A stretch of 51,148 bases of DNA, taken from Bacteroidota bacterium. GTDB lineage: Bacteria > Bacteroidota > Bacteroidia > Bacteroidales > Prolixibacteraceae. Position numbers and translations under genes: made by a program. The stretch is taken from positions 1 through 51,148 of the forward strand of contig JAHEYU010000041.1 in assembly GCA_023251435.1 (NCBI GenBank), in the 5' to 3' direction. Positions 4,739-26,584 of the stretch are shown here, in pieces (position 1 is the first letter of the stretch; the number at the start of each line of letters is the position of its first letter). A model generated the notes under the pieces. The model was not told where the DNA came from, ran no database searches, and worked only from the letters and a program-made list of their open reading frames with translations.

Positions 4739-4805
4739 TGAACAATTGATGTCCCACATTTGAACAATCGATGCGGTCTGTTTTAGGTATTTTACACCAA
4801 ATTTG
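4739..4805 (+). promoter_or_regulatory. Operator half-site pair plus -7 element before the 4900 gene (unit P1)
   Basis: Two near-identical direct repeats lie 22 bp apart: TGAACAATTGATG at 4739-4751 and TGAACAATCGATG at 4761-4773 (one difference). A -7 candidate CAAATTTG (one mismatch to TAnnTTTG) follows at 4798-4805. The distance from the C of the proximal CAAT core (4765) to the -7 element is 33 bp. No TTG -33 element is present at the expected place, as expected for an activator-dependent promoter. Three other places in the window share this geometry. Assignment to the HTCS is inference. Confidence 0.6.
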
Positions 4806-4899
4806 CAAGAATCTTTAAAATAAAAAGAATCGAAAATATTCTTTTACAACATTGAAATTAGAAGTTGTTTTAACCATTGTTAAACTAAAAAACTAAATT

Positions 4900-7800
4900 A
4901 TGAAGTCATTTTTACTACTTTTCTTGCTAATGGTATTTGGGCAGGCAATGTTTGCTCAGGATACCATTAAAACGTTTCTTATTACCGAAGCGAGGTTGCA
5001 CGATACCCACCGCGCTTACGTTGAATTCACAAACATGGGTACAGAAGCTATTGACCTGAAAAAGTTCAAAGTTGGTCAGATTTTGAGCAATGCCATTATT
5101 AATGGAAAGTCTACAGGGCAGGCATGGGCTATATTCCCTGATAAAATGTTGCAGCCGGGCGAATCATTTGTATTTGCTACCGTTAGCGACTACGACGCCA
5201 ATATGTATAAATTGGGTAACTACAAGTTTAGTGAAAGATCTACTCCGGAAAACTTGTTAAGCGAAGTCGATATCCAGATGCATATACCTAATATGCCTGG
5301 TAATAAAGTGTCAAATGCTCTTGACAGTATTTCTAAGAAATACAGCATTTTCAATGAGATGTGGGGCGGACAGACCGGAATATTTCTTCAACAACAATTG
5401 AATAATGGCGACTCTTGCGTGGTCGATCAGGTGGGTGGTATGTTTTTAGATACTGGCGGAAAACAACATGGACGTGGACCATATTCCGAAGGATATGATG
5501 TTGCTGGTTTTACAGGTGCCACAAAATACGCATATCTTATTAGAAAATATAGTGTTAAAAAAGGCAATCTGAATTTTGAAAAAGCCAGAGGTGTTGGTCT
5601 GGAAGATTCAGAATGGATTCCAATTCCACAGATTGGCGGCGCTACTGGTTGGAGAATGGTTCCGTGGACTGTTGGAAATCATGGAAACTATCAATTAAAT
5701 GCAAATACGCTGAAATCGGATGTTATTACGGTTGATTTAGCCAATAAAAAAATGGTTGTACCATGGGGCGTGGGTCGCAGGGATGCATTTATCAGCCATT
5801 TTAAGAAGGCTCCAGGAGTTGGATGGGAATATATTTTTACTGAAGATTCTACTTCAACAGCCGCACACACCGGCGACAAACTCGTAATTTATGTCTGTGG
5901 TGATCAGCTTACCCGTGAAACTTTCGATATCGAAGTTAAAGCTCCTGCTGGTACTGCCAACATGCTTCTGCCCAAATATAACGGACAACCCGATGGCGGT
6001 TATATTGATGCAGGATATCAACCATGGCCAAGGGTAACAGCCAATGCTTCTGGAATCGATTCAATTTGGGGTCCAAATGGCGGAGTACCTTACGCTACAC
6101 GTGTGGATAGTTTATTGGAATTACTTGAAAAGCCATCGAACGCAACCCTGGAAGTGGTATTTGCCAATGGAGTAAAAAAACCAGACCTTACAGATGGCGA
6201 CAAAATTAGAGTAACTTCTCAAAATGGCTTAAAAAAGGATTATGTGATTTCTATTGGCGCTTATATTCCAAGCGACAATGTCGATTTACGATCAATTACA
6301 TGGCCCGAAATTCCTGAATATTACAAAGGACTCTTTGGATGGAAAGGTGATACTATTCCATCGTTTGGACAGAAAACACTCAATTATAATTTGGAAGTTC
6401 CACTTGTATACGAAGGTATTCCTGCATTAATCGGAAAAACAAACGATACCAAAGCCACTATCGAAGTTACCCGTGCAAAGAGTTTATCAGGCTCGATGGC
6501 CGACAGAACCACCTCTTTCAAAGTAGTAGCCGAGGATAATAAAACCACAGCAACTTACAACGTTGTTTTAAACAAAGAGGTATCATACGATAACATACAA
6601 CCTTATGCTGCCGAACCTTTCTTTTCTGAAGTGGTTAAAAACTGGAACTGGAATGGAACAAGTGTTTTAGAGATTACCAATCCGGGAAATCAACCACTCG
6701 ATTTAAGTGATTATATGATTATAAATTATGGTGGTAGTGCGCTTGCTACATCAATACAAAATAATCAGACTGAAGCTTACAACATGCGTTACGAGAAGTA
6801 TATTCCGGGTTATAAGTGGACAGCGTCAGAGGGCATCTGGAAAGCCAGCCCATACCTTGCAGAGAAGGATCTTTCGGTAAATACCATCGTTCAGCCAGGC
6901 GGTGTATTTACATTGGCACGCACCAATACCAATGGAGGTATTATTTGCGACAACGCCTGGAAAGATCTATCATCTGGAAACCCTTTAATATCGCAAGTTG
7001 ATGTTGAGTTTAACACAATTGCAGCACCATGTCATAATTTTATAAATCAATGGGGCGAGACTACACTTGTTGAAAATGGAACACCGCTTGGGAAACCTCA
7101 TCAATATGCTACTATTGCCTTACTTAAAATTTTGAACGACTCTGTTAAGCAAGGTTTAAAACCGGCAACAGACCCGGACGATTTTCGTGCAATAGATTTT
7201 ATTGGAGGTGATGGAAAATCATGGATTTTACGTGGTGGAGATCTCAGCCAAGGTAGTCCGTTTGCATACCAGCGTAAACCACACATCACAAAAGGTAACC
7301 CAGAACCTGTTGTTTCTTTTGGGCTTAAAGGAGTTCCTGACAGCGAAGAATGGAATGTAGTTGATGGTGATCGTTTAGGTGCAGCAGGGTATGGCTGGCC
7401 ACGCACAATGTTATTTGTATTAAAAGATGTTGGCAAACATTACATGATTCCTGCAACAAGTTATAAATCAACAGTTACTTCTGTCGTTTATAAAGTAAGC
7501 GAAGGCTTCACAATGAAAGAAACTATCAGAGGTGTGAAACAAGGAACAACTGTTGCCGATTTTTATAACAATATTATAAAAGCGGATACAGCCCAAAGCC
7601 TCAAAGTATTGTCGGGTGCGGTTGAGTTACTTGCTACAGATATGCCAAAAAGTGGTGATATTCTGAAGGTAATGTCTGCCGATAGCGCCAATGTGACACA
7701 ATATGTATTAAATGTAACTGCCATTGGTTTAAGTTCAGATGCAATCATAAAATCAACATTCTATACTGTTAAAACAACAGTGAATCCTGATGGTTCTAAT

Positions 7801-10529: not shown

Positions 10530-10591
10530 ATATTTCACTCAATAGTAACCAATTTTATAATAGTCAGTCAATTGATATTTGGTAGTCATTA

Positions 10592-10660
10592 AGTTGCAAT
10601 AGAATGACAACAGATTGACAATAAATGACCACAACTGACTGATGCAAAATGCCAAATTTG
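10592..10660 (+). promoter_or_regulatory. Operator half-sites plus -7 element before the SusCD operon (unit P2)
   Basis: A proximal half-site TTGACAATAAATG (C of the CAAT core at 10619) and a weaker distal one, GTTGCAATAGAATG (C at 10597), are 22 bp apart, as in the unit at 4739. The -7 candidate CAAATTTG at 10653-10660 starts 34 bp after the proximal core C and is set in the same ten bases, CCAAATTTGC, as the 4797-4806 element. The start codon of the first operon gene is 46 nt downstream. The same stretch also carries TGAC at 10605, 10616, 10626 and 10636. Confidence 0.5.
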
Positions 10661-10706: not shown

Positions 10707-13016
10707 ATGATAAAGCTAAAAAATGCACATGTTCTTTTACTTTTTCTAATAACAATCATCTTTTATGCCTGTAAAGATGAAGTTATTGAAAAGTACCAGA
10801 GACCCGATTGGTTGGCAGGAAAGGTTTACACACAGGTTGCAGACAATGAAACATTATCAACCTTTGCAAAATGCCTGAGATTGGTCGGATATGATACTAT
10901 CATAAATGTTTCTGGTAGTTATTCGGTTTTGGCTCCAAACAACGAGGCATTTTCAGCCTGGTTAAAGTCAAAACAGTATGCAAATGTTGAGTCTGTGCCA
11001 AAGAATGAACTGGCCCGATTGGTTAAATACCACATCATACAAAACCCGTGGTCAAAAAGTCAGCTTCGGTCGCTCGACATTTATGGCTGGATTGACACTT
11101 TGGATATTAACAATAATGCTCCAAGGGGTAATAAAAGGCAAACCTTATTATTAGAAAAAAACCAGAAGTATGGTGTTGTAGTCAACACCCGAAACGAGGG
11201 TTTCGCAATTGTTGATACCTTAAATTCGAACTGGTACCGAAGAGTATTAACCGACTCAAGAAAGTATGCACCATTTTTTTACAGTGAATTTTTTTCGATC
11301 AATAATCTGAAAAGCAGTGATTACGAATATTATTTCAACCGGCCATTTGTTGGTGGCAATGATATCTATTTTAGTAGCGCCAAAACAGTTGGAAACGAAA
11401 TTTTTGCTGAAAACGGGTTTGTTCATATAATCGACAAGGTGGTTGACCCGGGGTTGAATGCCTATCAATTACTTTCCAGGAAAGATCAACCCAATAATTA
11501 TTCAGATTACCTTAAGCTGGTAAACAAATTTCCTGTTTTTACCTATAATTCGCGTGCAACCAAGGCACAGCCGGGCGCCAATTTAGGATTAAAAGTTGAT
11601 TCGCTTTTTGATGTTTCGTACCCTGAACTGGCATTTGATATTTTGAACGAAAAAGCTGATCCACCCAAAGGGGTGACGGGCTTACCCGAAAATGTTACTA
11701 TTCGGTATCACAATGGGATTTTTGCACCAACAAACGCGGCTTTATCTGATTTGATAAAGAAATACATAAGTGTGCCGAATGGATGGGGTAGTCTCGATCT
11801 TGCCCCAAAACATATTAAAAGAATCATTGCCAATTCCCACATGTCGTATCAGGCAGTTTATCCATCCGATCTTATCAGAGGCATTAATAACGGGGAACAG
11901 GATTTTTTGACCCTGAATGAGTCATCAGTTGTTGAGAGGCAGTATGGAAGCAATTGCACATTTATTGGATTGAACACAGCGGTAGTTCCAAGGGCATTTA
12001 GCAGTGTTACAGGTCCTGTTTATCTCAGGCCCGGGTACTCCACCAATATGTATGCTATCGAAAAGGTCGCACTTCTTCCTGCATTAAAAAGGAAGGGAAA
12101 AGATTACATGCTGTTTGTCCTGAATGATGATAAACTTCTGGCAGATTCCTCGTTGTCTTATAATCCGATCAGAAAAGAATTTTATGTATATCGAAAAACA
12201 GGTTCAAAGGCCGAAAGGTATGTGCTTTCAACCAACGATATCAGAACTCTTCTGATGAACCATGTGGGCGTTGAACAACCCAAAGGATTGGCCCGTAAGG
12301 AGTTTATATCGAATATGGCTGGTAGTTATATTATTGTGAATAATACAACCAATGAAGTATCGGGTACTGCTAAAACTACCGAAGGGTTTCAGGGGTATAA
12401 TGAAGCACCTAACTATCCACGAAAAGTTAGTGAGAATGCAGACAATGGTACTACTTATGAAATTAATAACTGGTTTAATTTTAGTACTGTTAACATTTAT
12501 AACAATGTTAAAACCAGGTTTCCGCTTTTCTTTAAATTAATTGAACAGGCAGGTCTCGCAAAAGCTACTACCCAAACCATCACTTTTCTTTCAGACAACG
12601 ATATTTATACCATATTTGCCCCAAGCGACGAGGCAATGAAGGCCTTTAGCAGTGCCGGATACACCAAAGAAGAGTTGGAAAATTTTATTAAGTTACATTT
12701 TGTGCAGGGAAGAATCATTTTTACCGACGGAAACAAACCATCAGGGTATTATGAAACAATGAAGGTTGATAAACGATCTACTGAATTCTCCAAGTTTTAC
12801 ACACAAATTTACATCGAAACCAGACCCGATTATATCAGAATAAAAGATAAAAGCGGAGTTCCATTTGCAATTATCGAAGAGTCTGAATACACCAATATAT
12901 TATGTGGCAAAGATGTATCTGCCACAACGACTGCAATATTTAAAAATATTTTCGATAATGCTGTAATACATAAGATTGACCGGGTTTTAATCGCGGATCA
13001 ACTGGATACTAAATAG
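10707..13016 (+). CDS. FAS1 (fasciclin) domain outer-membrane lipoprotein, multi-domain
   Basis: A 769-aa lipoprotein (lipobox IFYAC, Cys22) and the first gene of the uptake operon. It holds at least three fasciclin-like units. The first spans about 38-250, with the FAS1 signatures YSVLAPNNEAFSAWL, LVKYHII and GFVHIIDKVVDP. A second, more diverged, spans about 250-445 (GIFAPTNAALSDLI, HIKRIIANSHMS). A third follows a linker, about 610-765 (YTIFAPSDEAMKAF, FIKLHFVQG, NAVIHKIDRVL). The region about 450-600 resembles a decayed FAS1. Fasciclin lipoproteins are known companions of SusC/SusD pairs in environmental Bacteroidota; a role as surface glycan-binding protein is inferred. The next gene, susC-like, starts 44 nt after the stop. 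Confidence 0.85.
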   Translation: MIKLKNAHVLLLFLITIIFYACKDEVIEKYQRPDWLAGKVYTQVADNETLSTFAKCLRLVGYDTIINVSGSYSVLAPNNEAFSAWLKSKQYANVESVPKNELARLVKYHIIQNPWSKSQLRSLDIYGWIDTLDINNNAPRGNKRQTLLLEKNQKYGVVVNTRNEGFAIVDTLNSNWYRRVLTDSRKYAPFFYSEFFSINNLKSSDYEYYFNRPFVGGNDIYFSSAKTVGNEIFAENGFVHIIDKVVDPGLNAYQLLSRKDQPNNYSDYLKLVNKFPVFTYNSRATKAQPGANLGLKVDSLFDVSYPELAFDILNEKADPPKGVTGLPENVTIRYHNGIFAPTNAALSDLIKKYISVPNGWGSLDLAPKHIKRIIANSHMSYQAVYPSDLIRGINNGEQDFLTLNESSVVERQYGSNCTFIGLNTAVVPRAFSSVTGPVYLRPGYSTNMYAIEKVALLPALKRKGKDYMLFVLNDDKLLADSSLSYNPIRKEFYVYRKTGSKAERYVLSTNDIRTLLMNHVGVEQPKGLARKEFISNMAGSYIIVNNTTNEVSGTAKTTEGFQGYNEAPNYPRKVSENADNGTTYEINNWFNFSTVNIYNNVKTRFPLFFKLIEQAGLAKATTQTITFLSDNDIYTIFAPSDEAMKAFSSAGYTKEELENFIKLHFVQGRIIFTDGNKPSGYYETMKVDKRSTEFSKFYTQIYIETRPDYIRIKDKSGVPFAIIEESEYTNILCGKDVSATTTAIFKNIFDNAVIHKIDRVLIADQLDTK

Positions 13017-13060
13017 TTTTTAATAGAGAATGATGAATCATCCAAAGGTTTGAAAACGAA

Positions 13061-16000
13061 ATGAAAAACATCAAAGCAACTATATTATTACTGACGATAC
13101 TTATCAGTTTTTTTTCAGTGCATGCTCAGCAAAAGTCTGTAATCAGGGGCAGGGTAATTGATAAAACCGATAAGCAGGGCATTCCTGGCGTGAATGTTAT
13201 TGAGTACGACCGTGCAGATAGAACTGTGAATGGAACCATTACGAATGTTGATGGCGACTTCGTATATCAATTGTCTAATCCATCCAATAAAATCGTTATA
13301 AAGAATATTGGATATAAACCTTATGAACTGAAGCTTGATTTTACTAAATCAATCATAGTTGAACTTGTTTCAGATAATATCGATTTGGACGAAGTGGTTG
13401 TAAAGGGCGAGTTAAGATCAACAGCAGGACTAACCAATGTTGAAGAACGTGATAAAGCTACCTCCTCTGTAAAATTAGATTTGTTGGAATCGTATGATGG
13501 AGGAATAACTTCGGCCGAAGATGCTCTGCAGGGCAAAATCGCAGGTCTGGATATTATTTCAGCCTCAGGTGACCCAGGGTCGGGATCTCAAATTGTTATC
13601 AGAGGACTAAGTTCAATGGGAAATAGCAAACCTTTGATTGTGATCGACGGAATTCCGCAATTTAAGGTAGGTGGTTCTATAGACCTTAGTGCTGCTGATC
13701 AGGAGGATATCAGTAACCTGATAAACATACCGTTACAGGATATAAAATCAATTGAGGTGTTGAAAGATGCCGGCTCGACTGCTATTTATGGATCGCAGGG
13801 AGCAGATGGTGTTTTGCTGATTGAAACCAAGAAAGGGCGAATGGGTAAAGTTCAATTCGACTACCAGTACAAAAGAAGTGCAACCATTCAACCACCTGCG
13901 GTTCCTCTGCTCAATGGCGACGAGTATATCATGCTTCAGTTGGAAGAATGGCACAATAGCCGAGGCGTTTTCGAGGTACCTCTCGAGATTGCCTACGATA
14001 AGGATTACAAAGATTTTTATAATTATTCGGCCAATACCGATTGGCTTCGGGAAATTACCCAAAATGGGTTGGTTAACGATCATTACTTTAGTATCAGTGG
14101 CGGGGGCGAGAAAACGCGTTTTTTTAATTCGTACAGTTATGTCGATGACGTTGGGACTACCGTGAATACGCGCGGAAGAAAATTCTCAACCCGCATAAAT
14201 CTCGATTATTTCCTTTCGAAAAATATTCTATTTCAAATTAAATTTGATTATTTCAACAATATTAACGACGGAAACTTAAAAATAAATAATAAAAATATTC
14301 GCGAAATGGCTTATATCAAAGCCCCCAATATGAGTATTTGGGAGCACGATGCCAATGGGAATTTAACAGGCGAATATTTCAATCCGATTACCAGTTACCA
14401 GGGGGCCGGGACTTCCTATTTCAACCCGGTGGCAGTTGCAAATCTTGCTACAAACAATAAGGTGGATAATGATGTGAAAAACACTTTCATGTTACAGGTC
14501 AGGTTTAATAGCTGGTTATTATTAAGAGAAACAGTTTCATTTCAATATTCCGGAAGTAAACAAAAATCCTTCCTGCCATACAATGCCATTGGTGCCGACT
14601 GGACCGACTGGAATGTCAACAAGGGAGCGGAAAACAATTACCTGGGTAATTCAATCCGCACCGAAACGCAATTAACCTTTTCATCACCTTTTAAGTCCAA
14701 AGACCATCAGTTATCAGGGGCATTATCATGGATAACCGACCAATCGAGAACAGAGGGAATAGCAACTGAAATTAATCGTTCTGCCAGCATCAATCTGATT
14801 GATCCGGCCGGAAATGCCCAGGTTGGATGGATTGCCAATGGCTCTGATGAAAAACGGATGATTAGTGGGGTGGGTAACATTAATTACAAGTTCAAAGACA
14901 GGTATATGATTACATCGAATACCAGAGCCGATGCTTCATCAGTTTTTGGCCGCAATAAGAGAATGGGTGTATTTGCCGGAATTTCAGGAGCTTGGCGATT
15001 CTCGGACGAACCCTTTTTAGACGCATTGTATTGGTTGGATGATAGTAAATTACGATTAAGCTGGGGGGTTGTTGGTCGTCAACCTGACAATACCTATGCA
15101 CGTTTTTCAAATTATGTTACTACAAGAAATGGCGCTTACATCGATCATACCGCTATCGCACCAAATTCAATGGAGCTGAGTAATTTAAGTTGGGAGAACA
15201 CGACGACAACAAACTTAGGTCTGGATATTAGTTTGTTTAAAGGACGGTTTAACATCACTGGCGAAATTTACGATAAACTTACGACCAATATATTATTCAA
15301 GGATTACGATATACCCGGTATTTCAGGATACGACAGACTTCGCTACTTTAATGGGGGAGAACTGTCTAACAGGGGTTGGGAGGTCATGCTTGATTCGAGA
15401 ATCATTCAACAGAAAGATTTTTCATTGTCTGTCAACTTTAATACCAACCAAAATCGAAATGCATTTACGAAACTTCCTTTAAATTTTAATCCTGAAAAAT
15501 CAACTACCATCGGAAATGGCCAATATCCTTTGTTGGTTCAGGAGGGTAAACCCATCGGGTCATTCTTCGGGTTCAGGTATTTGGGTGTATTTGCTTCAGA
15601 CGCAGATGCGGTTGCCCGCGATGCCGATGGAAATATAATGTATCACAGTAACGGGTCACCTATTCCGTTCAGATATTTAAATTCATACACCTTTAAAGGT
15701 GGAGATCCGATATACAAGGATTTGAACAATGACGGAAAAATTGACCTGAATGATGTGGAAAAAATCGGTGACTCGAATCCGGATTTTATTGGCGGTTTCG
15801 GAGCCAATATAAAATACAAAGATTTCAGTATTTCGGCCAGCTTCCAGTATCGTGTCGGTTTCGATATTATTAACGGTATTGCAATACAAACCGAGGGGAT
15901 GAATAACCGGAATAACCAAAGTAAGGCTGTATTGAACAGATGGAGACTTCAGGGCCACAGCGAACCGGGGTTATTACCCAAAGCCTATATGAATCACCCT

Positions 16001-16282: not shown

Positions 16283-16293
16283 AAATTTAAATT

Positions 16294-17763
16294 ATGAAAT
16301 CATTCTTGAAATATATTTTTATTGCCGTATTTATCTTTTTTCAAACTTCGTGCAATAGTTGGTTAGATATTTATCCTCCAAATGGATTGATACGTGATGA
16401 GTTTTGGAAAGAAAAAGAGGATGTGGAAGCGGTATTAATGGCTGCTTACGAATCATTCGCAGAGATTGACGAAAAGCTTTGGTTAAACGGCGAGTTGCGG
16501 GCCGATATGCTCTTAGCTGGTACAAACCAGGCACCTGATGAAGAGAAAATAATGGAGAGCAATATTTATCCCGATAATGCATTCTGCAACTGGAAATCGT
16601 ATTATATAATTATTAATTACTGTAATGAGGTTATTAAAAATGCTCCGGCAGTTAAAGAGTTGGATAATACTTTTACCGAATATCATTTAAAAAGCCTAAT
16701 GGCTGAAGCCTACTTTCTGCGAAGTTTGACCTATTTCTATTTGGTGCGTATTTACAACGAAGTGCCTTTGATGTTAGAACCTGCCGAAAATGATGCTGTT
16801 GACTTTTACCTTCCAAAATCTACTGAAGAGGTAATTCTGAATCAACTAGTTAAAGATTTAAAAGAAAACAGGGAATTTGCGCCTTCCGGTTCATTCGTTA
16901 ATTTGGAGGATACAAAAGGCAGAGCATCGAAAGTTGCTTATGATGCCTTGTTGGCCGATATTGAACTTTGGCGTTTTAATTATGAAGAAGTGTTGGTTAA
17001 TATAGCTAAAATTGAAGAAAGAATTGATATTGGACTATTGACAAGCGCCCGCTGGTTCGAAATTTTCTATCCGGGCAATTCGTTCGAAAGTATTTTTGAA
17101 ATTCAGTTTGATGGCAAACTCGGACAAAACAATTCGCTGGCCAGCTATACAAGTAGATCGAGTAATAGATACTTTTCGAGTCAAAAGGCAATTGATCTGC
17201 TTTCATTAGAAACATCGTTTGAGATTGTCAGAGGTGAGAATGCGAGTATAGCCAGGTATGGTGAAAGTTCATATTATATTTATAAGTTCCTGGGACAATC
17301 GGCCGACGGGGTTACTGTAAGGACGGGTTTCGACGGGAATAGTGCAAATTTTATAGTTTATCGCCTGGCCGATGTATTGTTGATGAAAGCCGAAGCCCTG
17401 GCGATGCTCGAAAGATATCCACAATCACTGGAGATATTAAATAAAATTCGTGAAAGGGCAAATTTATCGCCGGTATCACTTGCCGATAATAGAGTTGCAT
17501 TCGAGGATGCGATAATGTATGAGCGGTCGATTGAACTGGCCTTTGAAGGCAAGCGTTGGTTCGACCTTTTACGATTGGGTCGCAGAAATAATTTTGCAAG
17601 AAAAGATAAACTCATCGAGATAATTATCAGCAATGTACCCTCTATACAAAAACGTATACTGGCAGCCCGGCTTACCAATCCATTGGGATGGTATTTACCG
17701 ATTTATGATTCTGAAATAGAACGGAATGTAAACCTGGAGCAAAATTCATTCTATGTTAATTAA
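16294..17763 (+). CDS. SusD-like outer-membrane glycan-binding lipoprotein (first copy)
   Basis: A 489-aa lipoprotein with lipobox FQTSC (Cys20) and the RagB/SusD fold. The N-terminal part SWLDIYPPNGLIRDEFW, the helical TPR-type stretch with AEAYFLRSLTYFYLVRIY, and the C-terminal SusD signature YERSIELAFEGKRWFDLLR are all present. It pairs with the SusC-like protein 11 nt upstream to capture oligosaccharide at the cell surface. It overlaps only an unlikely earlier start of the next gene; that gene's probable ATG is 19 nt after this stop. Confidence 0.97.
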   Translation: MKSFLKYIFIAVFIFFQTSCNSWLDIYPPNGLIRDEFWKEKEDVEAVLMAAYESFAEIDEKLWLNGELRADMLLAGTNQAPDEEKIMESNIYPDNAFCNWKSYYIIINYCNEVIKNAPAVKELDNTFTEYHLKSLMAEAYFLRSLTYFYLVRIYNEVPLMLEPAENDAVDFYLPKSTEEVILNQLVKDLKENREFAPSGSFVNLEDTKGRASKVAYDALLADIELWRFNYEEVLVNIAKIEERIDIGLLTSARWFEIFYPGNSFESIFEIQFDGKLGQNNSLASYTSRSSNRYFSSQKAIDLLSLETSFEIVRGENASIARYGESSYYIYKFLGQSADGVTVRTGFDGNSANFIVYRLADVLLMKAEALAMLERYPQSLEILNKIRERANLSPVSLADNRVAFEDAIMYERSIELAFEGKRWFDLLRLGRRNNFARKDKLIEIIISNVPSIQKRILAARLTNPLGWYLPIYDSEIERNVNLEQNSFYVN

Positions 17764-17782
17764 AAGCGAAAAGGAATTCATT

Positions 17783-19345
17783 ATGAAAGCATTTATATAC
17801 ATATTTATAGGCATATCGGCCCTGTTTTTGACGGCCTGTAATGATGGATCTATTGAAGGTGAAGGTCGCTTTGAAGATATGCGTGGCAAATCGATTTACG
17901 GCTATTTGACAGATAACAAGGAGGAATATTCTAAATTTATTGAGATCGTCGAAAAAAGTGGTTTGAAATCATCATTGAGTGCATACAATCCTTACGAGAA
18001 CGGTTATACCTTATTCCTACCCACAAATAAAGCGATTGACAACTATTTGGCAAACAGTACGCGGTTTAAAACGCTGGAACAACTTACCGGCGATTTGGAA
18101 TTCGCAAAAACATTGTGCGAGTATCATATTGTAAATGCCGAAATAGAGTCGAAAAGCTTTCCTTTTGGCGCTTTACCAAAATCAACAGTTTCAGGAGACT
18201 ACCTTACCATAAGCTTTGTGAAGGAAGGTAATACTTCTTACTTTAAGTTGAATAATAAAGCAGTTGTAACCAAGACGGATATTGATGCCTCAAACGGCTA
18301 TATTCACCAGATTGACGCTGTTTTAGATCCGGTAGTTTATACTACCTATCAATGGCTGTCGCAAAACCCTGATTATTCAATCTTTAAACAAGCAGTTGAT
18401 CTTACCGGAACACGTTCTTTAATCGACTTTAATTTGAAAAAAGATATTTCGGTTTTGCCTGTTACCATGTTAATTGAGCCTAATTCAGTTTATAAAAAAA
18501 TGGGAGTAAACAACATTCAGGATTTAATTTTGTATGTTAAAGCAACCGATCAGAACTATACAGATAAATACAATGCTTTGTATAATTTTGTTGCATACCA
18601 TTTTTTGATCAACAACTACTTTTTAGACCAGTTTGTGAATAAGAGTTCTGTTTATAACACTTATGCAGAAGTACCTCTAAATATAAATGGCTTAGGTTTA
18701 GATATTGCCATTAATAAGGGTAAGCAAATATTTGAAACTATCATTTACCAATCAGATACGACTTATATTGATTTCATAAAGTTTGATTACGATGCCAGTA
18801 ATTTGGCAACACAAAGTGGCACAGTGCATTTTATCGACCGGATAATGACCCCAAAGTCGCCCGCCCGCACAAATCAAACTTTTCAATTCAATGAAGAACC
18901 ATCGCTGGTTCCCCTTCGCAAGGCAGGTGGTACTTATCTGATGATTCCAAATTCATTGAAAACAATTCAATGGACAGGTAACGATTTGTTTTTTGTACAC
19001 TCAGGTGGTGTAAATAATGGTGCGAATAATAATGATTACATGAAAATAGAAGGTGATTTTACCATTTCGTATAATTTACCTAAAATCGTTCAGGGAAAGT
19101 ACGATGTTTATCTCAGAGCAGATAGATTTTCCACTCAAAATGCTTTTGTAGAAGTATTTATCGACAATAAGAAAATTGGAACAATAGTTAGTTTGATTTC
19201 CGGAGGGTCTGCAACAAATCCTTTCCAATATTTTAAAATTGGATCAACCGATTTTAGTCGGTACACTGAACATACTATTGAAATCCGGGCATTGATACCT
19301 GGTATATTTAAATGGGATATAATTGAATTTAGAGCAATTAATTAA
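17783..19345 (+). CDS. FAS1 domain lipoprotein with C-terminal carbohydrate-binding-like domain
   Basis: A 520-aa lipoprotein (FLTAC, Cys19). The ATG at 17783 is chosen because the signal peptide MKAFIYIFIG begins there; an upstream ATG at 17753 would overlap susD. First FAS1 domain about 28-190 (YTLFLPTNKAIDNYL, CEYHIVNAE, GYIHQIDAVLDP); second, diverged FAS1 about 190-365 (VAYHFLINNYF, GTVHFIDRIMTP). The last ~150 residues form a beta-rich domain (KYDVYLRADRFSTQNAFVEV, WDIIEFRAIN) resembling carbohydrate-binding modules, which supports a role as surface glycan-binding protein. It sits directly after the first SusCD pair and is paralogous to the next gene, which starts 7 nt downstream. Confidence 0.82.
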   Translation: MKAFIYIFIGISALFLTACNDGSIEGEGRFEDMRGKSIYGYLTDNKEEYSKFIEIVEKSGLKSSLSAYNPYENGYTLFLPTNKAIDNYLANSTRFKTLEQLTGDLEFAKTLCEYHIVNAEIESKSFPFGALPKSTVSGDYLTISFVKEGNTSYFKLNNKAVVTKTDIDASNGYIHQIDAVLDPVVYTTYQWLSQNPDYSIFKQAVDLTGTRSLIDFNLKKDISVLPVTMLIEPNSVYKKMGVNNIQDLILYVKATDQNYTDKYNALYNFVAYHFLINNYFLDQFVNKSSVYNTYAEVPLNINGLGLDIAINKGKQIFETIIYQSDTTYIDFIKFDYDASNLATQSGTVHFIDRIMTPKSPARTNQTFQFNEEPSLVPLRKAGGTYLMIPNSLKTIQWTGNDLFFVHSGGVNNGANNNDYMKIEGDFTISYNLPKIVQGKYDVYLRADRFSTQNAFVEVFIDNKKIGTIVSLISGGSATNPFQYFKIGSTDFSRYTEHTIEIRALIPGIFKWDIIEFRAIN

Positions 19346-19352
19346 GAGACAC

Positions 19353-20885
19353 ATGAAATCGACAATCATATTATTTTTCGCAATCATTGTTTTTTCCATA
19401 ACATCTTGTACAAACAGATGGGAAGAACATTTTAACGTAACTCCCGACACTGTTGAAAAAAATGTTTGGGATGCGATGAAAGAAGATGCCCAGATATCAA
19501 AATTTGTTGAATTGCTGGAAGCCAATAAGTTGGATACTCTTTTTAAATCGGATATTGCGTACACCGTATTTGCTCCCAGCAATAAATCTTTCGAAACAAT
19601 CAATTTTTCAGTCATTGATACTTCAATTTTATTGGGCTATCATATCGTTAGTCACTTTATTCAATCAGAGAGCATTGGAAAATCACGACAGGTAATGACT
19701 CTCTCCAAGAAGTATGCAATAATTACTAAAAATGGAACTGCGCTTAGTATTGATGGAGTACCTGTGAGTTTTGAAAGTTCGTTGTACCGGAATGGTAAAT
19801 ATTTTGTGGTTGACAAAGTGGTGACACCATTGCCCAGTCTATACGAATTCTTTGAAAAAAATAATCATGTATTAAGCGAATACATTGATAGTCATGATTC
19901 AATTGTACTGGATCTCGCCAATAGTAAACCTATAGGGTTTAATACGGCTGGAAATACAGTGTTCGATTCGGTAACTGTTGTTTACAATCGTTTTGAAGAA
20001 CAGGTCTTTCCGGTAAGAAAGGAATTTCGCAACAAAACTGCCACTTTTGTATTTCCGCTGGCAAATGACTACAATTCAGCCCTTGATAAAATGGCCGTCA
20101 AAATGGGTTATACCGATCGTAACAATATTCCTTCATTATGGCAACAAAAGGTATTGGTTCCTTATCTTATTGGTAATGGAACTTTTGAAAACATGCTTGA
20201 ACCTGAAGATTTTGTCATTTCAACTCCGCTGGTTAAAAAGAAAATGAAAAATATAGTTGGCGATAGCGTGGTAATTTCATATAGACCAGTCGCCAAACAA
20301 TTGCTCAGTAATGGCTATGCCTATAACTACGAAAATTTCGAAATCCCTGATTCATTATATAATAAAGGAACAAGGTTTGAGTTTGAAGACCTTTTGGTAG
20401 TAACAGGTATAAATAAATTTGCGTGGGGCGAGTTGGTTAAAGTAAATAGCTCAATAACTGTTTCTCCATTTCGTGAATTCGTACCCAAATCATCAAATGA
20501 CAGTATTGTCAGGGTTTTGTTCCCGCCCTCGTTTACTGGTAGCTATTCAATGGAATTTGAAACACCGTATCTGTTTCCGCGAAAGTATATTTTGGTTCTT
20601 CGTACACTTATGGATATTGGAGGTATATACAATATTTATGTAAATGGCAAATTGGTAAGAAAGTTCGACTATTACGATTTTGTGATTTATAAAACAATAC
20701 TACCAAGTGTTGTTCCGGGACAAAGGTATATTCCGGTTGGTCGCTATAATAGCTTTGATATGTATGTCGACAATATTGCTGATTATTCGAAAGCTAAAAT
20801 AAAGATTGAATATGCGGGACCCGGAAGAATCACTTCCTTAGGATTTGTTATGGACTATATAGAATTTATCCCGGTTAAAAATTAA
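19353..20885 (+). CDS. FAS1 domain lipoprotein with C-terminal beta-sandwich domain
   Basis: A 510-aa lipoprotein (SITSC, Cys19). The start is set at 19353, where the signal peptide MKSTIILFF begins, not at the in-frame ATG at 19323 inside the previous gene. One clear FAS1 domain spans about 28-165 (YTVFAPSNKSFETI, LGYHIVSHFI, GKYFVVDKVVTP); a weaker second FAS1-like stretch spans about 166-370. The C-terminal ~125 residues are a beta-sandwich (YILVLRTLMDIGGIYNIYVN, VMDYIEFIPVKN) like the end of the preceding protein. Together they look like a duplicated pair of surface glycan-binding proteins between the two SusCD pairs (inference). The next gene, susC-like, starts 31 nt downstream. Confidence 0.82.
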   Translation: MKSTIILFFAIIVFSITSCTNRWEEHFNVTPDTVEKNVWDAMKEDAQISKFVELLEANKLDTLFKSDIAYTVFAPSNKSFETINFSVIDTSILLGYHIVSHFIQSESIGKSRQVMTLSKKYAIITKNGTALSIDGVPVSFESSLYRNGKYFVVDKVVTPLPSLYEFFEKNNHVLSEYIDSHDSIVLDLANSKPIGFNTAGNTVFDSVTVVYNRFEEQVFPVRKEFRNKTATFVFPLANDYNSALDKMAVKMGYTDRNNIPSLWQQKVLVPYLIGNGTFENMLEPEDFVISTPLVKKKMKNIVGDSVVISYRPVAKQLLSNGYAYNYENFEIPDSLYNKGTRFEFEDLLVVTGINKFAWGELVKVNSSITVSPFREFVPKSSNDSIVRVLFPPSFTGSYSMEFETPYLFPRKYILVLRTLMDIGGIYNIYVNGKLVRKFDYYDFVIYKTILPSVVPGQRYIPVGRYNSFDMYVDNIADYSKAKIKIEYAGPGRITSLGFVMDYIEFIPVKN

Positions 20886-20916
20886 AATGACTCATTAACA
20901 AGAAACAATTTTACGA

Positions 20917-23900
20917 ATGAGAAATCATAATTACTTCATGAAAAAAGAATTGCTCAGTCATATTCAAATGAATATCAAGATACTGTTGGTTTGGTCAATT
21001 TCATGCTTAACTGGAATTGGTATAGCGAATGCTCAGGATGCAAAAATAATAAAGGGGGTGGTTTTAAATTCATTGAATGAACCTGTTGCAGGGGTCTCGG
21101 TGGGGATTGAAAAATCATCGGAATTACCGACAGTGACTAATCAGATGGGTGAGTTTACGGTGACAGCAATTTCTGGAGATGATTGGCTGAATATAGAGCC
21201 TGAGTCCAGTTATAAATCCAAAAGGATAAACCTTAACAACAGGTCAAGTTTGAAAGTATATTTATCCAGAAATAATTCTCCATCGGGGAACGACCCGTTA
21301 AATATTTTATCGAACACTGTACTAGGGCGTAATTTGGCCGTCTCTAATACCGTTTTAAACCTGAAATATACAGACGAGTCTCCAGCGTTATCGATCGATC
21401 AGTATATGCAGGGGATCGTACCCGGCGTAAATGTAACAGGCCGTACCGGCGATCCGGGCGGAGGTACCAATACCCTTACCAGGGGGATTAATTCAATCAA
21501 TGCGAGTAATACTCCTCTTTATGTGATCGATGGACAACCGATTTCATCGTTCAATGTCCTTCAATCCAATCTTAAAGGTTATAGTTATAATCCGCTTCTT
21601 TCAATCTCCCTTATGGATATATCGGAGCTGACCTTCATTAAAGATCCTGCTTATACTGCTGCTTTTGGCTCAAAAGCATCGAACGGACTGGTACTCATCA
21701 GTACACTCGACCCAAGTGCCACTAAAACAGTAATTGAGCTTGATGTGCGTACCGGCTATTCATTAACCCCTCAAAAAAGAATGACGCAATTGACTGCCAA
21801 TCAGCACAAAACACTTGTTAGTGAAGTGCTTTTTTCATCAGGCAAGCAAGAAGAAATCATCAAAAAAGAGTATCCAAATCTTTTTCTGACTTCTGGAGAT
21901 GATCGTTATATCGACTATCAGCACGAAACAGATTGGCAAAGCTTAATTTTTGATGAAGCCTTTTTCAAGAACATGAATGTAAACATAAAAGGTGGAGACG
22001 AAATTGCGAAATATGGTTTGTCGGTTGGTTATGTCGACGCCGAAGGAATTGTAAAAACCACTTCTTTCAAAGGATATAATCTCAGGTTTGTGAGTATGGC
22101 CAATATTTATAAATGGTTAAAAATGAACTCTGGCGTTTCAATGTCCTACAATATTTCCGAGTTAAAAGAGTCGGCAGAAATGGCTCAAACCAGCCCTGTT
22201 TTAACTGCCCTGGCAAAGGCTCCTATGTTGAATCCTTTTTCGTACGACGAAGAAGGGCGTGAATTAAAAACGCTTTCTCCGGTCGATGAGCTTGGTGTTA
22301 GTAATCCTTTGGCAATAATAAACAAGTATGATGCAAAGAATACCAGTTTTAATTTCAGCTCAAATTTTGGTGCAAATGCCAAAATAAACAAAGATCTCGT
22401 TTTTAACACAAATTTTGGGTTAGGCTATAATGTATTAAGGGAGATAATCTTTATGCCCAGTGAAGGGATGGAGCTCTACTACAACAAAGAAGCCTACAAT
22501 GTATCGAAAGGCAATAACAATAGTTTAATCACTTTCTTTAATAACTCCTACTTTTTGTACAATAAAACCATTGGAAACCATAAGTTAAGTTTCAATACGG
22601 GTACAAATATGCTAATCAACAGATACGAATTTGATTGGGGCTTATCTAAGAATGCTGCAAAAAATGATGAGTACCGCACATTGGGCGATGGAGTTAGTAT
22701 TCTTAGGGAGCTTGGAGGCGATAATCAAAACTGGAACTGGTTGTCTGTTTACGAAAGTGTGAATTACAGTTTCCTTGATAAGTATTTGTTAAATGCATCA
22801 TTATCTATTGATGGATCATCGCGAATTGGCGAAAATGCCAGAAATACAATCAAAATCGGGAACATTCCTTTGGGGGTTTTCTATGGGATTGGTGCCGGTT
22901 GGCGTTTGTCAAGCGAAAATTTCATGAGTAATATAAACTGGTTGGAAGAGCTTAAATTAAGGGTATCTTATGGTAAAACCGGTAACGACGACATAGGAGA
23001 ATCCAATGCCAACAACTACTACAATTCGGTTAAGTTCCGACAAATAACCGGACTCTTTAAAGCATTGATCCCCAATGATGAACTTACTTATGAAACAGTA
23101 AGTCAGCTTAATGCCGGCCTTGATTTGTCAATCTGGGGCGATCGTTTTTCCACAACCATTGATTTGTATTCTTCAACAACGAATGATATGTTGTTGTACA
23201 AGCCAATCGAAGCTTATTTCGGTTATGATTTCAGACCTGAAAATGGGGGGCAAATGAGGAATACAGGAGTTGATTTGGGCTTTTATTTGCGTATTTTCGA
23301 CAGGCCTACGTTTAGTTGGGATATCGAAGGCAGTTGGTCTTTGGTGAAAAATGAAATAACCGAACAGTCCGGATCTGGAATTGTTACAGAGGTTCACGGC
23401 GCACAAATCATTAACGAAAAAGGTTCTACTGCCAATAGTTTCTATGGATATGTTTTCGAAGGTGTTTACACTACAACCGAAGAGGCAGTAAAAGCCAATC
23501 TTGTTGATAAACGTTTCCTTCCATACCAGGCTGGTGACGCAAAATTCAAAGATCTTTCAGGCCCCAAAGGCAATCCTGATGGTGTGATCAATACTTATGA
23601 CAAAACAGCGATCGGATCATCGTTGCCCGAACATTTTGGAGGGCTGCGAAATACTTTTAATTACAAGCAATGGTCGTTGAGTGCTTATTTGCAATATGTT
23701 TCAGGTAATGAAGTTTACAACTATGTTCGGTTCGAAAATGAAAGTATGTCGGGCCTCGAAAATCAGAGTGCAAATGTATTAAACCGTTGGCAACATCAGG
23801 GGCAGATAACAAATGTGCCTCGTGCCAGATGGGATGACCCTCAGGGTAACGCCGCTTTTTCGAGCCGATGGATAGAAGATGGTTCATACCTGAAAGTTAG

Positions 23901-24114
23901 AACTATATCACTCAATTACACGCTGGATAAAGAGTTCTGGGCATTTAAAAAAGCTAAATTCTATGTCTCGGCAAGCAATCTCTTTACGTTTACCAACTAT
24001 CTTGGCTATGATCCCGAGGTAAGTTATTCGCGCAGGCAATTCGATCAGGGTATCGATTACGGCCTTACTCCCCAGCCAAGGCAATTTATTTTTGGTGCTA
24101 AATTTGGTTTCTAA
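20917..24114 (+). CDS. SusC-like TonB-dependent outer-membrane transporter (second copy)
   Basis: A 1065-aa receptor. The ATG at 20917 is used; 20938 is an equally possible start that gives a tighter leader. Signal segment ends near IANAQD; regulatory-like domain about 45-115 (IIKGVVLNSLNEPVAGVSV, NQMGEFTV); plug about 130-265 (MQGIVPGVNVTGRTGDPGGG, TPLYVIDGQPISS, ELTFIKDPAYTAAFGSKASN); barrel ending FIFGAKFGF. It diverges strongly from the SusC at 13061, so the two pairs are not a recent duplication and may take up different oligosaccharides. It lies 18 nt upstream of its SusD-like partner. Confidence 0.97.
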   Translation: MRNHNYFMKKELLSHIQMNIKILLVWSISCLTGIGIANAQDAKIIKGVVLNSLNEPVAGVSVGIEKSSELPTVTNQMGEFTVTAISGDDWLNIEPESSYKSKRINLNNRSSLKVYLSRNNSPSGNDPLNILSNTVLGRNLAVSNTVLNLKYTDESPALSIDQYMQGIVPGVNVTGRTGDPGGGTNTLTRGINSINASNTPLYVIDGQPISSFNVLQSNLKGYSYNPLLSISLMDISELTFIKDPAYTAAFGSKASNGLVLISTLDPSATKTVIELDVRTGYSLTPQKRMTQLTANQHKTLVSEVLFSSGKQEEIIKKEYPNLFLTSGDDRYIDYQHETDWQSLIFDEAFFKNMNVNIKGGDEIAKYGLSVGYVDAEGIVKTTSFKGYNLRFVSMANIYKWLKMNSGVSMSYNISELKESAEMAQTSPVLTALAKAPMLNPFSYDEEGRELKTLSPVDELGVSNPLAIINKYDAKNTSFNFSSNFGANAKINKDLVFNTNFGLGYNVLREIIFMPSEGMELYYNKEAYNVSKGNNNSLITFFNNSYFLYNKTIGNHKLSFNTGTNMLINRYEFDWGLSKNAAKNDEYRTLGDGVSILRELGGDNQNWNWLSVYESVNYSFLDKYLLNASLSIDGSSRIGENARNTIKIGNIPLGVFYGIGAGWRLSSENFMSNINWLEELKLRVSYGKTGNDDIGESNANNYYNSVKFRQITGLFKALIPNDELTYETVSQLNAGLDLSIWGDRFSTTIDLYSSTTNDMLLYKPIEAYFGYDFRPENGGQMRNTGVDLGFYLRIFDRPTFSWDIEGSWSLVKNEITEQSGSGIVTEVHGAQIINEKGSTANSFYGYVFEGVYTTTEEAVKANLVDKRFLPYQAGDAKFKDLSGPKGNPDGVINTYDKTAIGSSLPEHFGGLRNTFNYKQWSLSAYLQYVSGNEVYNYVRFENESMSGLENQSANVLNRWQHQGQITNVPRARWDDPQGNAAFSSRWIEDGSYLKVRTISLNYTLDKEFWAFKKAKFYVSASNLFTFTNYLGYDPEVSYSRRQFDQGIDYGLTPQPRQFIFGAKFGF

Positions 24115-24132
24115 CATTTTATTTTAAAACAA

Positions 24133-26001
24133 ATGATACGATTTAAAAATCAAAAAAATCTTCTATACATCATTGCTCTGATGTTTGCAATGGTTCCGGT
24201 TTCGTGCACTGAGTTTTTTAATCCTGAACAAGAAATAGACATTACAGAAGACAAACTTTACAAAGACTGGTATGAGTACCGGGCGGTGGGGATGGGGATG
24301 TATGCCCTGCAGCAGGATTTGGCTGAGCAGCTTTTGGTCTTGGGCGAATTACGTGGTGATTTGCTAACTACTACCGACAATGCCGATGCCGACCTTATTG
24401 AGATACAAAATTTTAATGTGTCCAAAGGGAATAAATATGCCTCACCTACCAAATTCTTTAAACTCATTGCTTCATGTAATAATATCATTAAAATCTTAAG
24501 AGAAAATCATCCTGAAGTAATCGATCCAAATGTTGAAATAACCAATTACGACCGGCTTTATGGCGAAGCTTTGTGCATGAGGGCATGGGCTTATTTTTAT
24601 GCAGTTCGCATTTATGGAAAAGTTCCATTCATTCACGAATCGTTAACCTCGATAGAAGAAATCAACGGCTATTTGGCTTCACCATCAGTTTATGTCGATA
24701 GTGTTGATATTGTTTACGGCAGTGATGGTTTCGACAATGATACCATTTACAATAATAAAATCGAGTTGACAAAACAATATTGGGATACTAAATTGATTGT
24801 TGATTATTTCAGCAACGACCTGATTGAAAATATTAAGGCAGTGGGAGTTGATCATGCTATCAATAACCAGGACGGTTCATGGGAAGTGATTGTTTGGAGT
24901 GATTTTGCCAAGAACACCCTGTTAGGGCAGATGTACCTCACCATTGGAGATTTGGTAAAGGCTTCGGTTTATTTCGAAAAGATCGTTAACTTCAGTTCTA
25001 CTAACTATAGATTTCAGCTCGATAGAACATTTTCCAACACAAACTGGAAGAGTATTTTTACCACGATCGATTCCCGCGAGCATATTTATACCCTCTGGTT
25101 TGGTAAATCGAGTCAGCAGCAAAACGATTTTCAAAATATGTTCGATTCCCGTGCTCCACATAAATACATGCTTAAACCAACAAATTTTGCTGTTTCAAAA
25201 TGGGAAACGATATGGAACGATTTTAAACTTACCAGTTTAAATGGAAAAACTATTTTAGATCCACTCAATCCAGGTCGCCCCGGCGATTCCTGCAGAGGAT
25301 ATAACGTTTCTTATGCTTATATGAAAAATGGAATTCCTCTTGAAAATAAGCAAATTAAAAAAATGTTATACCTGAGGTCTGTTGGAGAAACGAGTAGTGC
25401 CCGCTTAATTACCGAAGATGTAGATACTGTTGTTTGGAAATACAGTTTGAATAAAAATGTATTCGACCAGGATGCTAACTTAATAGTATATCGTGCTGCC
25501 GGCGTGCATTTGTGGTTAGCCGAAGCGTTTGTATGGTGGGCTCCCAATCAGGGAGGGATAGGAAGTCCGGCCTCAAGTGCCAAAGGTTTAGTCAACGATG
25601 GAGCGTATTACAATACAAGTGCTTCGAGGCTGCAGTTGGGTGTGAGAGGTCGTGTAGGTTTTGGTGGCACCAGCGGTACTTCGTTTGAACATATTGATGT
25701 AGTTGATATTAACTATTTACGGGATCCTTATACCAACAAGGTTATTGGCCAAATCGATCTTAGATCAGAACCCTTCGAAGCCAGGAAAAAGTTTCTCGAA
25801 GACCAGATTATGGATGAAAAAATCCGTGAATTGGCCTGGGAAGGAGAACGTTATTACGATTTGATGCGTGTAGCAAAACGCAGAAACGATCCATCATATC
25901 TTGCAGCAAAAGTAGCCCGAAAATTTCCTGCCGATCAAAAGGGTCGGGTTTATAATCTTTTGCTCGATGAAAAGAATTGGTACATTAATTACTTTGAATA
26001 G
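24133..26001 (+). CDS. SusD-like outer-membrane glycan-binding lipoprotein (second copy)
   Basis: A 622-aa lipoprotein with lipobox VPVSC (Cys25) and RagB/SusD features: LGELRGDLLTTTDNAD, ALCMRAWAYFYAVRIYGKVP, and the C-terminal signature DEKIRELAWEGERYYDLMRV. It is longer than the first SusD here (489 aa); extra length lies in the middle (about 190-260 and 330-470). Partner of the SusC-like protein immediately upstream and the last large gene of the operon. Confidence 0.96.
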   Translation: MIRFKNQKNLLYIIALMFAMVPVSCTEFFNPEQEIDITEDKLYKDWYEYRAVGMGMYALQQDLAEQLLVLGELRGDLLTTTDNADADLIEIQNFNVSKGNKYASPTKFFKLIASCNNIIKILRENHPEVIDPNVEITNYDRLYGEALCMRAWAYFYAVRIYGKVPFIHESLTSIEEINGYLASPSVYVDSVDIVYGSDGFDNDTIYNNKIELTKQYWDTKLIVDYFSNDLIENIKAVGVDHAINNQDGSWEVIVWSDFAKNTLLGQMYLTIGDLVKASVYFEKIVNFSSTNYRFQLDRTFSNTNWKSIFTTIDSREHIYTLWFGKSSQQQNDFQNMFDSRAPHKYMLKPTNFAVSKWETIWNDFKLTSLNGKTILDPLNPGRPGDSCRGYNVSYAYMKNGIPLENKQIKKMLYLRSVGETSSARLITEDVDTVVWKYSLNKNVFDQDANLIVYRAAGVHLWLAEAFVWWAPNQGGIGSPASSAKGLVNDGAYYNTSASRLQLGVRGRVGFGGTSGTSFEHIDVVDINYLRDPYTNKVIGQIDLRSEPFEARKKFLEDQIMDEKIRELAWEGERYYDLMRVAKRRNDPSYLAAKVARKFPADQKGRVYNLLLDEKNWYINYFE

Positions 26002-26176: not shown

Positions 26177-26214
26177 TTAACAGTTGTTTAACTTCTGTAG
26201 CTAATACTACCGGC

Positions 26215-26243
26215 TTTTAGAATCGCCAACGGCGATTCTAAAA
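26215..26243. repeat. Perfect 13-bp dyad at the end of the SusCD operon
   Basis: TTTTAGAATCGCC (26215-26227) and GGCGATTCTAAAA (26231-26243) form a perfect inverted repeat around AAC. The T-run is on the 5' arm and the A-run on the 3' arm for both strands, so it is not a standard U-tract terminator. It may form a stable mRNA 3' end or a protein-binding dyad. Confidence 0.7.
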
Positions 26244-26268
26244 ATCAACATCAGTAATGGTTCATATC

Positions 26269-26335
26269 TGAACTGATTGTTATCTAATTTGGACAATAAT
26301 TATTACCTGAATTTTTATTACATAGCTTAATTTTG
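26269..26335 (+). promoter_or_regulatory. Operator half-sites plus perfect -7 element before the putative small RNA (unit P3)
   Basis: A distal TGAACTGATTG (C at 26273) and a proximal TTTGGACAATAAT (C at 26294) are 21 bp apart. A perfect TAnnTTTG -7 element, TAATTTTG, is at 26328-26335, 34 bp past the proximal core C. Spacing matches the units at 4739, 10592 and 26498. Transcription would start near 26341, only about 100 nt before a strong terminator. Confidence 0.5.
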
Positions 26336-26340
26336 ACTTT

Positions 26341-26438
26341 CAATAAATGGAAAGGTAAAAGTTCATAATTGTTTGGTTTAGGTGTATTATTCATCGGTTC
26401 CTTCACTAATCATTTGATTTTGTGAAGGAACCTTTTTT
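26341..26438 (+). ncRNA. Putative PUL-encoded small RNA (about 98 nt)
   Basis: A promoter-like unit (-7 at 26328-26335) and an intrinsic terminator (26396-26438) bracket about 98 nt that contain no credible reading frame; the ATG at 26346 is followed by a stop after three codons. The 3' half is the terminator hairpin and the 5' half is AT-rich and single-stranded in appearance. Small RNAs encoded inside PULs are known in Bacteroides. The alternative is that this is the attenuated 5' leader of the 26677 gene. The start is estimated from the -7 element and is uncertain by a few bases. Confidence 0.42.
26396..26438 (+). terminator. Intrinsic terminator
   Basis: GGTTCCTTCAC (26396-26406) pairs perfectly over 11 bp with GTGAAGGAACC (26422-26432) around a 15-nt loop, followed by six T residues (26433-26438). 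It ends either the putative small RNA or read-through from the SusCD operon. Confidence 0.88.
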
Positions 26439-26497
26439 ATGAAGCAGTTAGTATTATTGAATGCAGGGAAAATTTAATTTTCAGATAGCATATAATT

Positions 26498-26584
26498 GAG
26501 AACAATAACCAACCTATTTGGACAGTGAATTGACGTTTATGAACAATTAGTAATACTTCTTTTTTTTTTGCAATGTTAATTTTG
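26498..26584 (+). promoter_or_regulatory. Phased half-sites plus perfect -7 element before the enzyme block (unit P4)
   Basis: Half-sites GAGAACAATAACC (C at 26503), TTTGGACAGTGAAT (C at 26523) and ATGAACAATTAGTA (C at 26544) are spaced 20 and 21 bp. The perfect -7 element TAATTTTG is at 26577-26584, 33 bp from the proximal core C, the same distance as at 4739. The stretch ATGAACAATT is shared exactly with the distal repeat at 4738. The first enzyme gene starts 92 nt past the -7 element. A TATAAT at 26631 was noted but is less likely in this phylum. Confidence 0.55.

Follow-up and report, generated by a model that had tools for sequence, protein, structure and literature searches.

Putative operators of a hybrid two-component system regulator: paired direct half-sites at a fixed distance from the -7 element in a Prolixibacteraceae polysaccharide utilization locus

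Introduction

A 51,148-nucleotide contig from a Prolixibacteraceae genome (GenBank assembly GCA_023251435.1, contig JAHEYU010000041.1) carries a polysaccharide utilization locus (PUL) headed by the gene of a hybrid two-component system (HTCS) regulator that starts at position 521. This whole stretch, here called the window, is one entire contig (C135) of a 5.73 Mb genome in 148 contigs. Its promoters raise the question of whether one regulator switches on the locus as a unit, and through which sites. For 16 Bacteroides HTCSs, Ravcheev et al. predicted in 2013 direct-repeat operators whose two sites are on average 21 bp apart (PMC3878776), and the Bacteroidota primary-sigma promoter is described as having a TAnnTTTG -7 element and TTTG around -33 (PMC7366714). 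A preliminary description of the window, made from the sequence alone, had proposed one operator architecture at four promoters (P1 to P4), consisting of two direct half-sites two helical turns apart followed by a -7 element. In our analysis this architecture holds at P1, P3 and P4, recurs at three promoters outside the window (P5 to P7), and very probably represents operators of the locus's own HTCS, through which these promoters would be switched on together.

Results

Paired half-sites stand at a fixed place before the -7 element

At P1, P3 and P4, direct half-sites with a TGRAC core lie 21 to 22 bp apart (the lag), 33 to 34 bp upstream of a TAnnTTTG-like -7 element (Table 1). Rechecking in the sequence returned the half-site coordinates that had been given for P1 to P4, the lags (22, 22, 21, and 21), and the distances from the proximal core to the -7 element (33, 34, 34, and 33). 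The element CAAATTTG of P1 and P2 has five of the six consensus letters; TAATTTTG of P3 and P4 has all six, as do the elements of P5 to P7. The reported absence of a -33 TTG was likewise borne out. No TTG occurs in the 32 nt before the -7 element at P1 to P3, and the one at P4 is not a -33 element because it lies only 9 nt before the -7, too close by the usual -33 to -7 spacing. None of the seven promoters (P1 to P7) has a TTG at -33 spacing, the TTG of P5 lying 19 nt before its -7 element.

Because sites picked by hand can be biased, we also ran a de novo seed search over the intergenic regions of the window, with the operator geometry and the -7 element as search terms and 100 dinucleotide shuffles as the null. 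The search scored 107 against a shuffle maximum of 106 (mean 99.9, sd 1.8), and its winning seed was the P4 proximal half-site. The fourth-best region was 49962-50400 (score 23), ahead of the P2 region (22). Without the -7 term, the search was not significant (88 against a shuffle mean of 87.4). When promoters were left out one at a time and half-sites ranked among 102264 positions on both strands, the proximal and distal ranks were 52 and 24 for P1, 15 and 3148 for P3, and 10 and 15 for P4. The distal half-sites of P2 and P3 had both been called weak. That of P2 ranks 26754 (proximal 32), and that of P3 is found again, as a GAACTGA-type half-site, in P5 and P6. Across the genome's own six strong promoters (P1 and P3 to P7), the two half-sites of a promoter are similar to one another at lag 21 (p 0.002; 0.03 over 21 lags). 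As read from their sequence, P1, P3 and P4 hold as paired sites at a fixed place before the -7 element.

Strong sites outside the window are few

A DNA search of 140 genomes of the family with the P3/P4 intergenic DNA found one further place in the same genome, P5 (C84:19466-19644, E 4.4e-8), which is 68% identical to window positions 26263-26440, that is, to the operator, -7 element and leader of P3. A sequence-only profile built on P1, P3, P4 and P5 (R1) detected P6 (C84:5784-5851) as a held-out match at E 8.6e-8, the next match being at 0.006. P7, on contig C120, emerged from a matrix scan of 429663 own-genome bases, a sample that includes five stretches fetched owing to weak R1 matches; including the -7 element, it scored 31.3, against 18.9 for the next different place. 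When single sites were left out of the own-genome matrix scans, P3, P5 and P6 each ranked first. The six strong promoters (P1, P3 and P4 in the window, P5 and P6 on C84, P7 on C120) all keep a lag of 21 or 22 and a distance of 33 or 34 bp to the -7 element.

The preliminary description had called for a check of whether the motif occurs elsewhere in the genome at background rate. With a profile trained on all six strong sites (R3), the training sites stand at E 2.4e-9 or better in their own genome, followed by a gap to 9.2e-4, which together with the held-out detection of P6 argues that the motif is not background. In the whole genomes of five relatives, the best R3 match reached E 0.0034 and 20 bits, versus at least 39.5 bits for the six. 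Searched as a strict exact pattern, the operator pair had no match in the own genome. By these scans the operator motif occurs rarely in the genome, and only within the predicted regulon. Three other candidates were set aside: an R3 match on C53 (E 9e-4), which falls within an opposite-strand coding frame, and a match on C46 (E 0.003-0.006) were taken as chance, and a half-site pair at L037 18968 is internal to a fasciclin gene. The C46 match adjoins what we take to be a tRNA-like stretch and a recombinase-like frame.

Both outside contigs carry PUL-type enzyme genes. Those on C84 encode GH43, DUF4832, two sulfatases and T9SS-tail proteins, with no SusC/SusD seen on that contig; one end of C84 (L068 11580-11640) resembles an insertion-element end, perhaps of IS21-like type, and cuts the gene after P5. 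On C120, an 856-aa protein matches residues 565-952 of the window protein encoded at 34587-37493 at 33%, and a putative GH3-like C-terminal part is encoded there as well. C120 probably adjoins the window on the left, because its end matches window positions 1-166 at 98.8% identity up to both contig ends and no second place matches over the full length. P7 would then stand some 3 kb before the first position of the window.

Related half-sites lie beside an orthologous HTCS

In a single chain, Pfam finds a Reg_prop and Y_Y_Y sensor, HisKA, HATPase_c, a receiver and an AraC-type HTH domain in the protein encoded at 521. Its receiver carries a SHIP motif (TSHIPVILLTA; TSHIP at residue 1191 of the 1372-aa frame), a motif which, in S/CHIP form, is described as present in most HTCSs and linked to inhibition of the DNA-binding domain (PMC11253607). 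By its domains and its S/CHIP motif, the protein is an HTCS regulator. The suggestion that two-turn direct repeats fit an AraC-family dimer is supported, since an HTCS with an AraC-type domain heads the locus and the arrangement matches that predicted for the 16 Bacteroides HTCSs (PMC3878776).

Searching the 140 family genomes with the whole HTCS (E<=1e-200) gave matches in four besides the own genome, G054 and G052 at 49-50% identity and G116 and G121 at 34-36%. The HTCSs of G054 and G052 share 62% identity with the window HTCS in the DNA-binding domain, and their genes are divergent from susC. When the orthologous HTCS loci were first scanned with a -7 element required at 33-34 bp, nothing strong was returned; a refined matrix without that requirement revealed three half-sites between the HTCS gene and susC in these two genomes, facing susC and away from the HTCS gene, with lags of 22 and 20. 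The run scores 28.0. Its closest competitor among 1074614 pooled bases from the own genome and the relatives, excluding the window and C84, scores 18.6. None of 2000 column-permuted matrices reached it, and other lag ranges gave at most 12.7. Because these are three half-sites of the same motif beside an orthologous HTCS in two genomes, they support reading the window sites as HTCS operators. Orthologous SusC and DUF4832 loci are mostly without the motif; upstream of the orthologous DUF4832/GH27 genes in G063 (L072 12279-12345), a good half-site pair at lag 21 is inverted and has no proper -7 element.

Spacing was also compared at 16 promoters of the fasciclin-SusC block that stand beside different HTCSs (15 in relatives and one own, counting only loci with both a usable upstream region and a -7 element). 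Their best self-match is at lag 21 (p 0.002; 0.044 over 21 lags, among related sequences). This agrees with a general two-turn rule, but the motif differs.

A candidate autoregulatory site upstream of the HTCS gene

An inverted half-site with its core at 380 (TTTGAACTGTAAGTTACCC on the minus strand) is the top single half-site in 610086 sampled own-genome bases, scoring 19.6 against 16.0 for the best outside the set; it was absent from the matrix training, and the sample contained none of the stretches fetched for weak profile matches. R3 matches it in part (363-389), at E 0.005 in 76 kb and 0.37 genome-wide. Counting against the site, a half-site on C46, outside this sample and taken as chance, scores 19.8, so scores of this order arise by chance somewhere in the genome. 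With a weak partner at 402 and no -7 element at 33-34 bp, the sequence suggests an autoregulatory site of the HTCS rather than a promoter of the P1, P3 and P4 type.

P3 and P5 share a predicted leader hairpin

Downstream of the P3 -7 element, a stable, GC-rich and terminator-like hairpin is predicted, which together with its T run spans 26396-26438. The fold of 26336-26440 has -27.1 kcal/mol and z -3.81, with none of 200 shuffles as good. A terminator scan listed nothing at this hairpin, probably because its loop of 9 exceeds the 3-8 that the scan allows. For the P5 leader (L068 10539-10648) the fold has z -3.09, with one of 200 shuffles doing as well. Its stem is preserved, both sides having changed at one pair (A-U to C-G) and a single side at another; the P5 tail, TATTGTATTATT, lacks a good T run. 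No window protein matches the gene downstream of P5 at E 1e-8. A single both-sided change in two sequences is weak evidence of a conserved stem, because the P3/P5 alignment model pairs across the operator likewise (seven pairs, one with a both-sided change). In the other 139 of the 140 family genomes, under stricter filters, the model gave two marginal matches (E 0.28 and 0.35). Rfam returned nothing at the gathering score, PyrR alone appearing at 21.9 bits (cut-off 54) and E 0.91.

From these predictions, the product of P3 may be a short RNA of about 100 nt or an attenuated leader. A more specific reading is tentative and on balance unlikely: that P3 and P5 represent one cassette of HTCS operator, -7 element and conserved leader hairpin placed before unrelated genes, and that P3 drives a stand-alone RNA of about 100 nt, induced by the glycan sensor together with the enzymes and acting as a small RNA or attenuator inside the regulon. 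The predicted P3 transcript shares with PUL-associated short RNAs, namely the DonS-like antisense RNAs and GibS as described in PMC7366714, that it is short, terminator-ended and within a PUL. Unlike those RNAs, as far as that account characterizes them, it has sense orientation, an HTCS-type promoter and no Rfam match at the gathering score. Should this transcript exist, a small RNA or attenuator would be linked to an HTCS regulon.

Discussion

Reading the sites of P1, P3 and P4, together with P5 to P7, as operators of the locus's own HTCS suggests a simple route to activation. By analogy with the family, binding of an oligosaccharide to the periplasmic sensor would lead to phosphotransfer to the receiver and free the AraC-type DNA-binding domain. 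Two such domains would bind side by side on one DNA face, each at one of the two direct half-sites, which are separated by two turns. The place of a -33 element begins just past the proximal half-site, and the bound activator would most likely substitute for the missing -33 contact there and recruit primary-sigma polymerase to TAnnTTTG, the distance being held at 33-34 bp.

As in the predicted Bacteroides operators, described as two conserved direct half-sites with an average spacing of 21 bp before PUL operons near the HTCS gene and proposed to bind a dimer on one DNA face (PMC3878776), the present sites pair a two-turn spacing with a PUL and its HTCS. They differ from that account in that the genome is Prolixibacteraceae-like and the distance to the -7 element is measured, and the likeness is one of spacing and arrangement, the half-site letters standing outside the comparison. 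All seven promoters have TAnnTTTG or are one letter off, in agreement with the primary-sigma promoter outlined in PMC7366714; unlike that promoter, all seven lack a TTG at -33 spacing, which is what dependence on an activator would predict. Direct repeats of about 21 bp at HTCS promoters and the idea of a dimer on one face had already been proposed, and the operator set described here is a fresh example, ordinary in kind. A literature search, with subscription papers mostly outside its reach, found no report of this operator set or of the fixed -7 distance. The set provides testable operators for an HTCS from outside Bacteroides, accompanied by a specificity check across the genome and by a related site next to an orthologous HTCS. 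Its geometry (half-sites 21-22 bp apart, a further 33-34 bp to the -7 element, and no -33 element) could aid the prediction of HTCS regulons from sequence.

Several results weigh against, or limit, the assignment of all of these promoters to the HTCS at 521. The genome profile scans scored 150 of 2262 (R1) and 150 of 2438 (R3) first-look candidates, so that weak sites can be missed. P7 is unlisted by R1, which gives it 4.0 bits and E 0.99, and its half-site pair alone scores 21.8, no better than the best pairs in relatives' genomes (21.9 and 19.5). Left out of the matrix, P1 ranks 73 (11 with the -7 term) and P4 ranks 9 (2 with the -7 term). The TAnnTTTG of G054 and G052 is displaced by one repeat compared with the window, standing 55 bp instead of 33 bp beyond the third core; 33 bp ahead of this -7 element the matrix scores -3.7, no match. 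These two genomes are nearly identical at the run and represent one observation. Promoter candidates at other HTCS loci of the own genome show lag 21 in 2 of 31 cases, versus 1 of 58 in other stretches, numbers that speak neither for nor against 21-bp repeats at a fixed place there. Finally, P2, the main SusCD promoter, is unlisted at E<=10 by both profiles; its best local profile match has 3.8 bits and is confined to the proximal half, and in the own-genome matrix scan P2 is absent from the matches listed, ranking 484th with the -7 term.

A different, unlinked regulator, either another AraC-type protein or another HTCS, might read the sites while the HTCS at 521 controls something else. The genome encodes at least 12 further DNA-binding domains of the AraC type (E<=1e-8), and binding of the HTCS at these sites is itself a prediction from sequence. 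None of the 12, however, is more than 42% identical to the DNA-binding domain of the HTCS at 521, the strong matches are confined to the window locus, C84 and C120, and half-sites stand upstream of the HTCS gene at 521 and beside its orthologue in two genomes, so we consider an unlinked regulator improbable. Still less credible is that the promoters are alike through recent duplication of promoter segments that have no operator function. Such duplication would account for P3 and P5, which share 68% identity over about 178 bp spanning operator and leader together, and for the 37 nt at 70% around the -7 elements of P3 and P4. It would leave aside P1, P6 and P7, which by inspection have little in common beyond half-sites and -7 element, the likeness at lag 21 of the two half-sites inside one promoter, and the recurrence of the motif beside the orthologous HTCS.

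Of the four promoters originally grouped together, P1, P3 and P4 retain the common architecture and P2 does not: its sequence leaves it unsupported as a full operator and supported by half. It is quite possible, if somewhat doubtful, that P2 is no operator of the HTCS at 521, the SusC operon being read through from P1 or placed under another regulator and the P2 alignment being partly chance. Besides its absence from both profile lists and its poor distal half-site, a different HTCS (26-29% identical) lies directly upstream in 10 of 20 fetched fasciclin-SusC loci (nine in relatives and one own paralogue), and the promoters there look different. Against this stands the proximal half-site, which ranks among the best in the window and has the correct distance to its -7 element. 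P2 could not be confirmed from the relatives' fasciclin-SusC promoters, which differ and, where an HTCS is seen, adjoin a different one. The gene order itself, fasciclin-SusC-SusD-fasciclin-fasciclin-SusC-SusD, is kept in all four relatives with long enough stretches (L030, L031, L022+L070, and L028+L074); the adjoining HTCS differs where seen, as if the regulator had been exchanged.

TGAC occurs at 10608, 10619, 10629 and 10639 (window 10600-10642), a ladder with steps of about one helical turn. An alternative P2 register through this ladder, as drawn by MAFFT, was rejected, there being by inspection no TAnnTTTG at 33-34 bp from it.

Features of the locus

Besides the HTCS gene, the PUL encodes LTD/T9SS-tail, GH31 and fasciclin-domain proteins and two SusC/SusD pairs, followed in its 3' part by DUF4832, GH43, GH27, CBM6 and GH20b-domain genes. 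A search with the window SusC returned 29 loci, in relatives that include Mariniphaga, Draconibacterium, Tangfeifania and other Prolixibacteraceae, in line with the placement of the genome in this family.

Table 1 Coordinates of sites, predicted transcript and genes (window positions unless a stretch is named)
Feature	Position	Strand	Details
P1 putative operator	4737..4778	+	cores 4743/4765, lag 22
P1 -7 element CAAATTTG	4798..4805	+	33 bp past proximal core
P2 candidate operator	10591..10632	+	cores 10597/10619, lag 22; proximal good, distal poor
P2 -7 element CAAATTTG	10653..10660	+	34 bp past proximal core
P3 putative operator	26267..26307	+	cores 26273/26294, lag 21
P3 -7 element TAATTTTG	26328..26335	+	34 bp past proximal core
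P4 putative operator	26517..26557	+	cores 26523/26544, lag 21
P4 -7 element TAATTTTG	26577..26584	+	33 bp past proximal core
Inverted operator-like site	367..408	-	half-site core 380 (TTTGAACTGTAAGTTACCC on minus strand), weak partner core 402, 22 bp apart
Predicted P3 short transcript/leader	26336..26440	+	hairpin 26396-26432, then T6, terminator-like
Three-half-site run (orthologous HTCS loci)	L069 17159-17263; L071 8176-8280		cores L069 17159, 17181, 17201; scores 10.9, 9.0, 8.1
HTCS regulator	521..4639	+	ATG at 521, longer TTG frame from 497; Pfam matches
LTD/T9SS-tail gene	starts 4900		downstream of P1
GH31 gene	starts 8916		probably also downstream of P1
Fasciclin-SusC-SusD-fasciclin-fasciclin-SusC-SusD genes	10707-26001		downstream of P2
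DUF4832, GH43, GH27 genes	from 26677		downstream of P4

A perfect inverted repeat without a T run, TTTTAGAATCGCC AAC GGCGATTCTAAAA, lies 3' of the second SusD gene at 26215-26243. At the left end of the window, positions 1-65 are a short repeat with 12 more copies in the genome besides that on C120, 80-93% identical.

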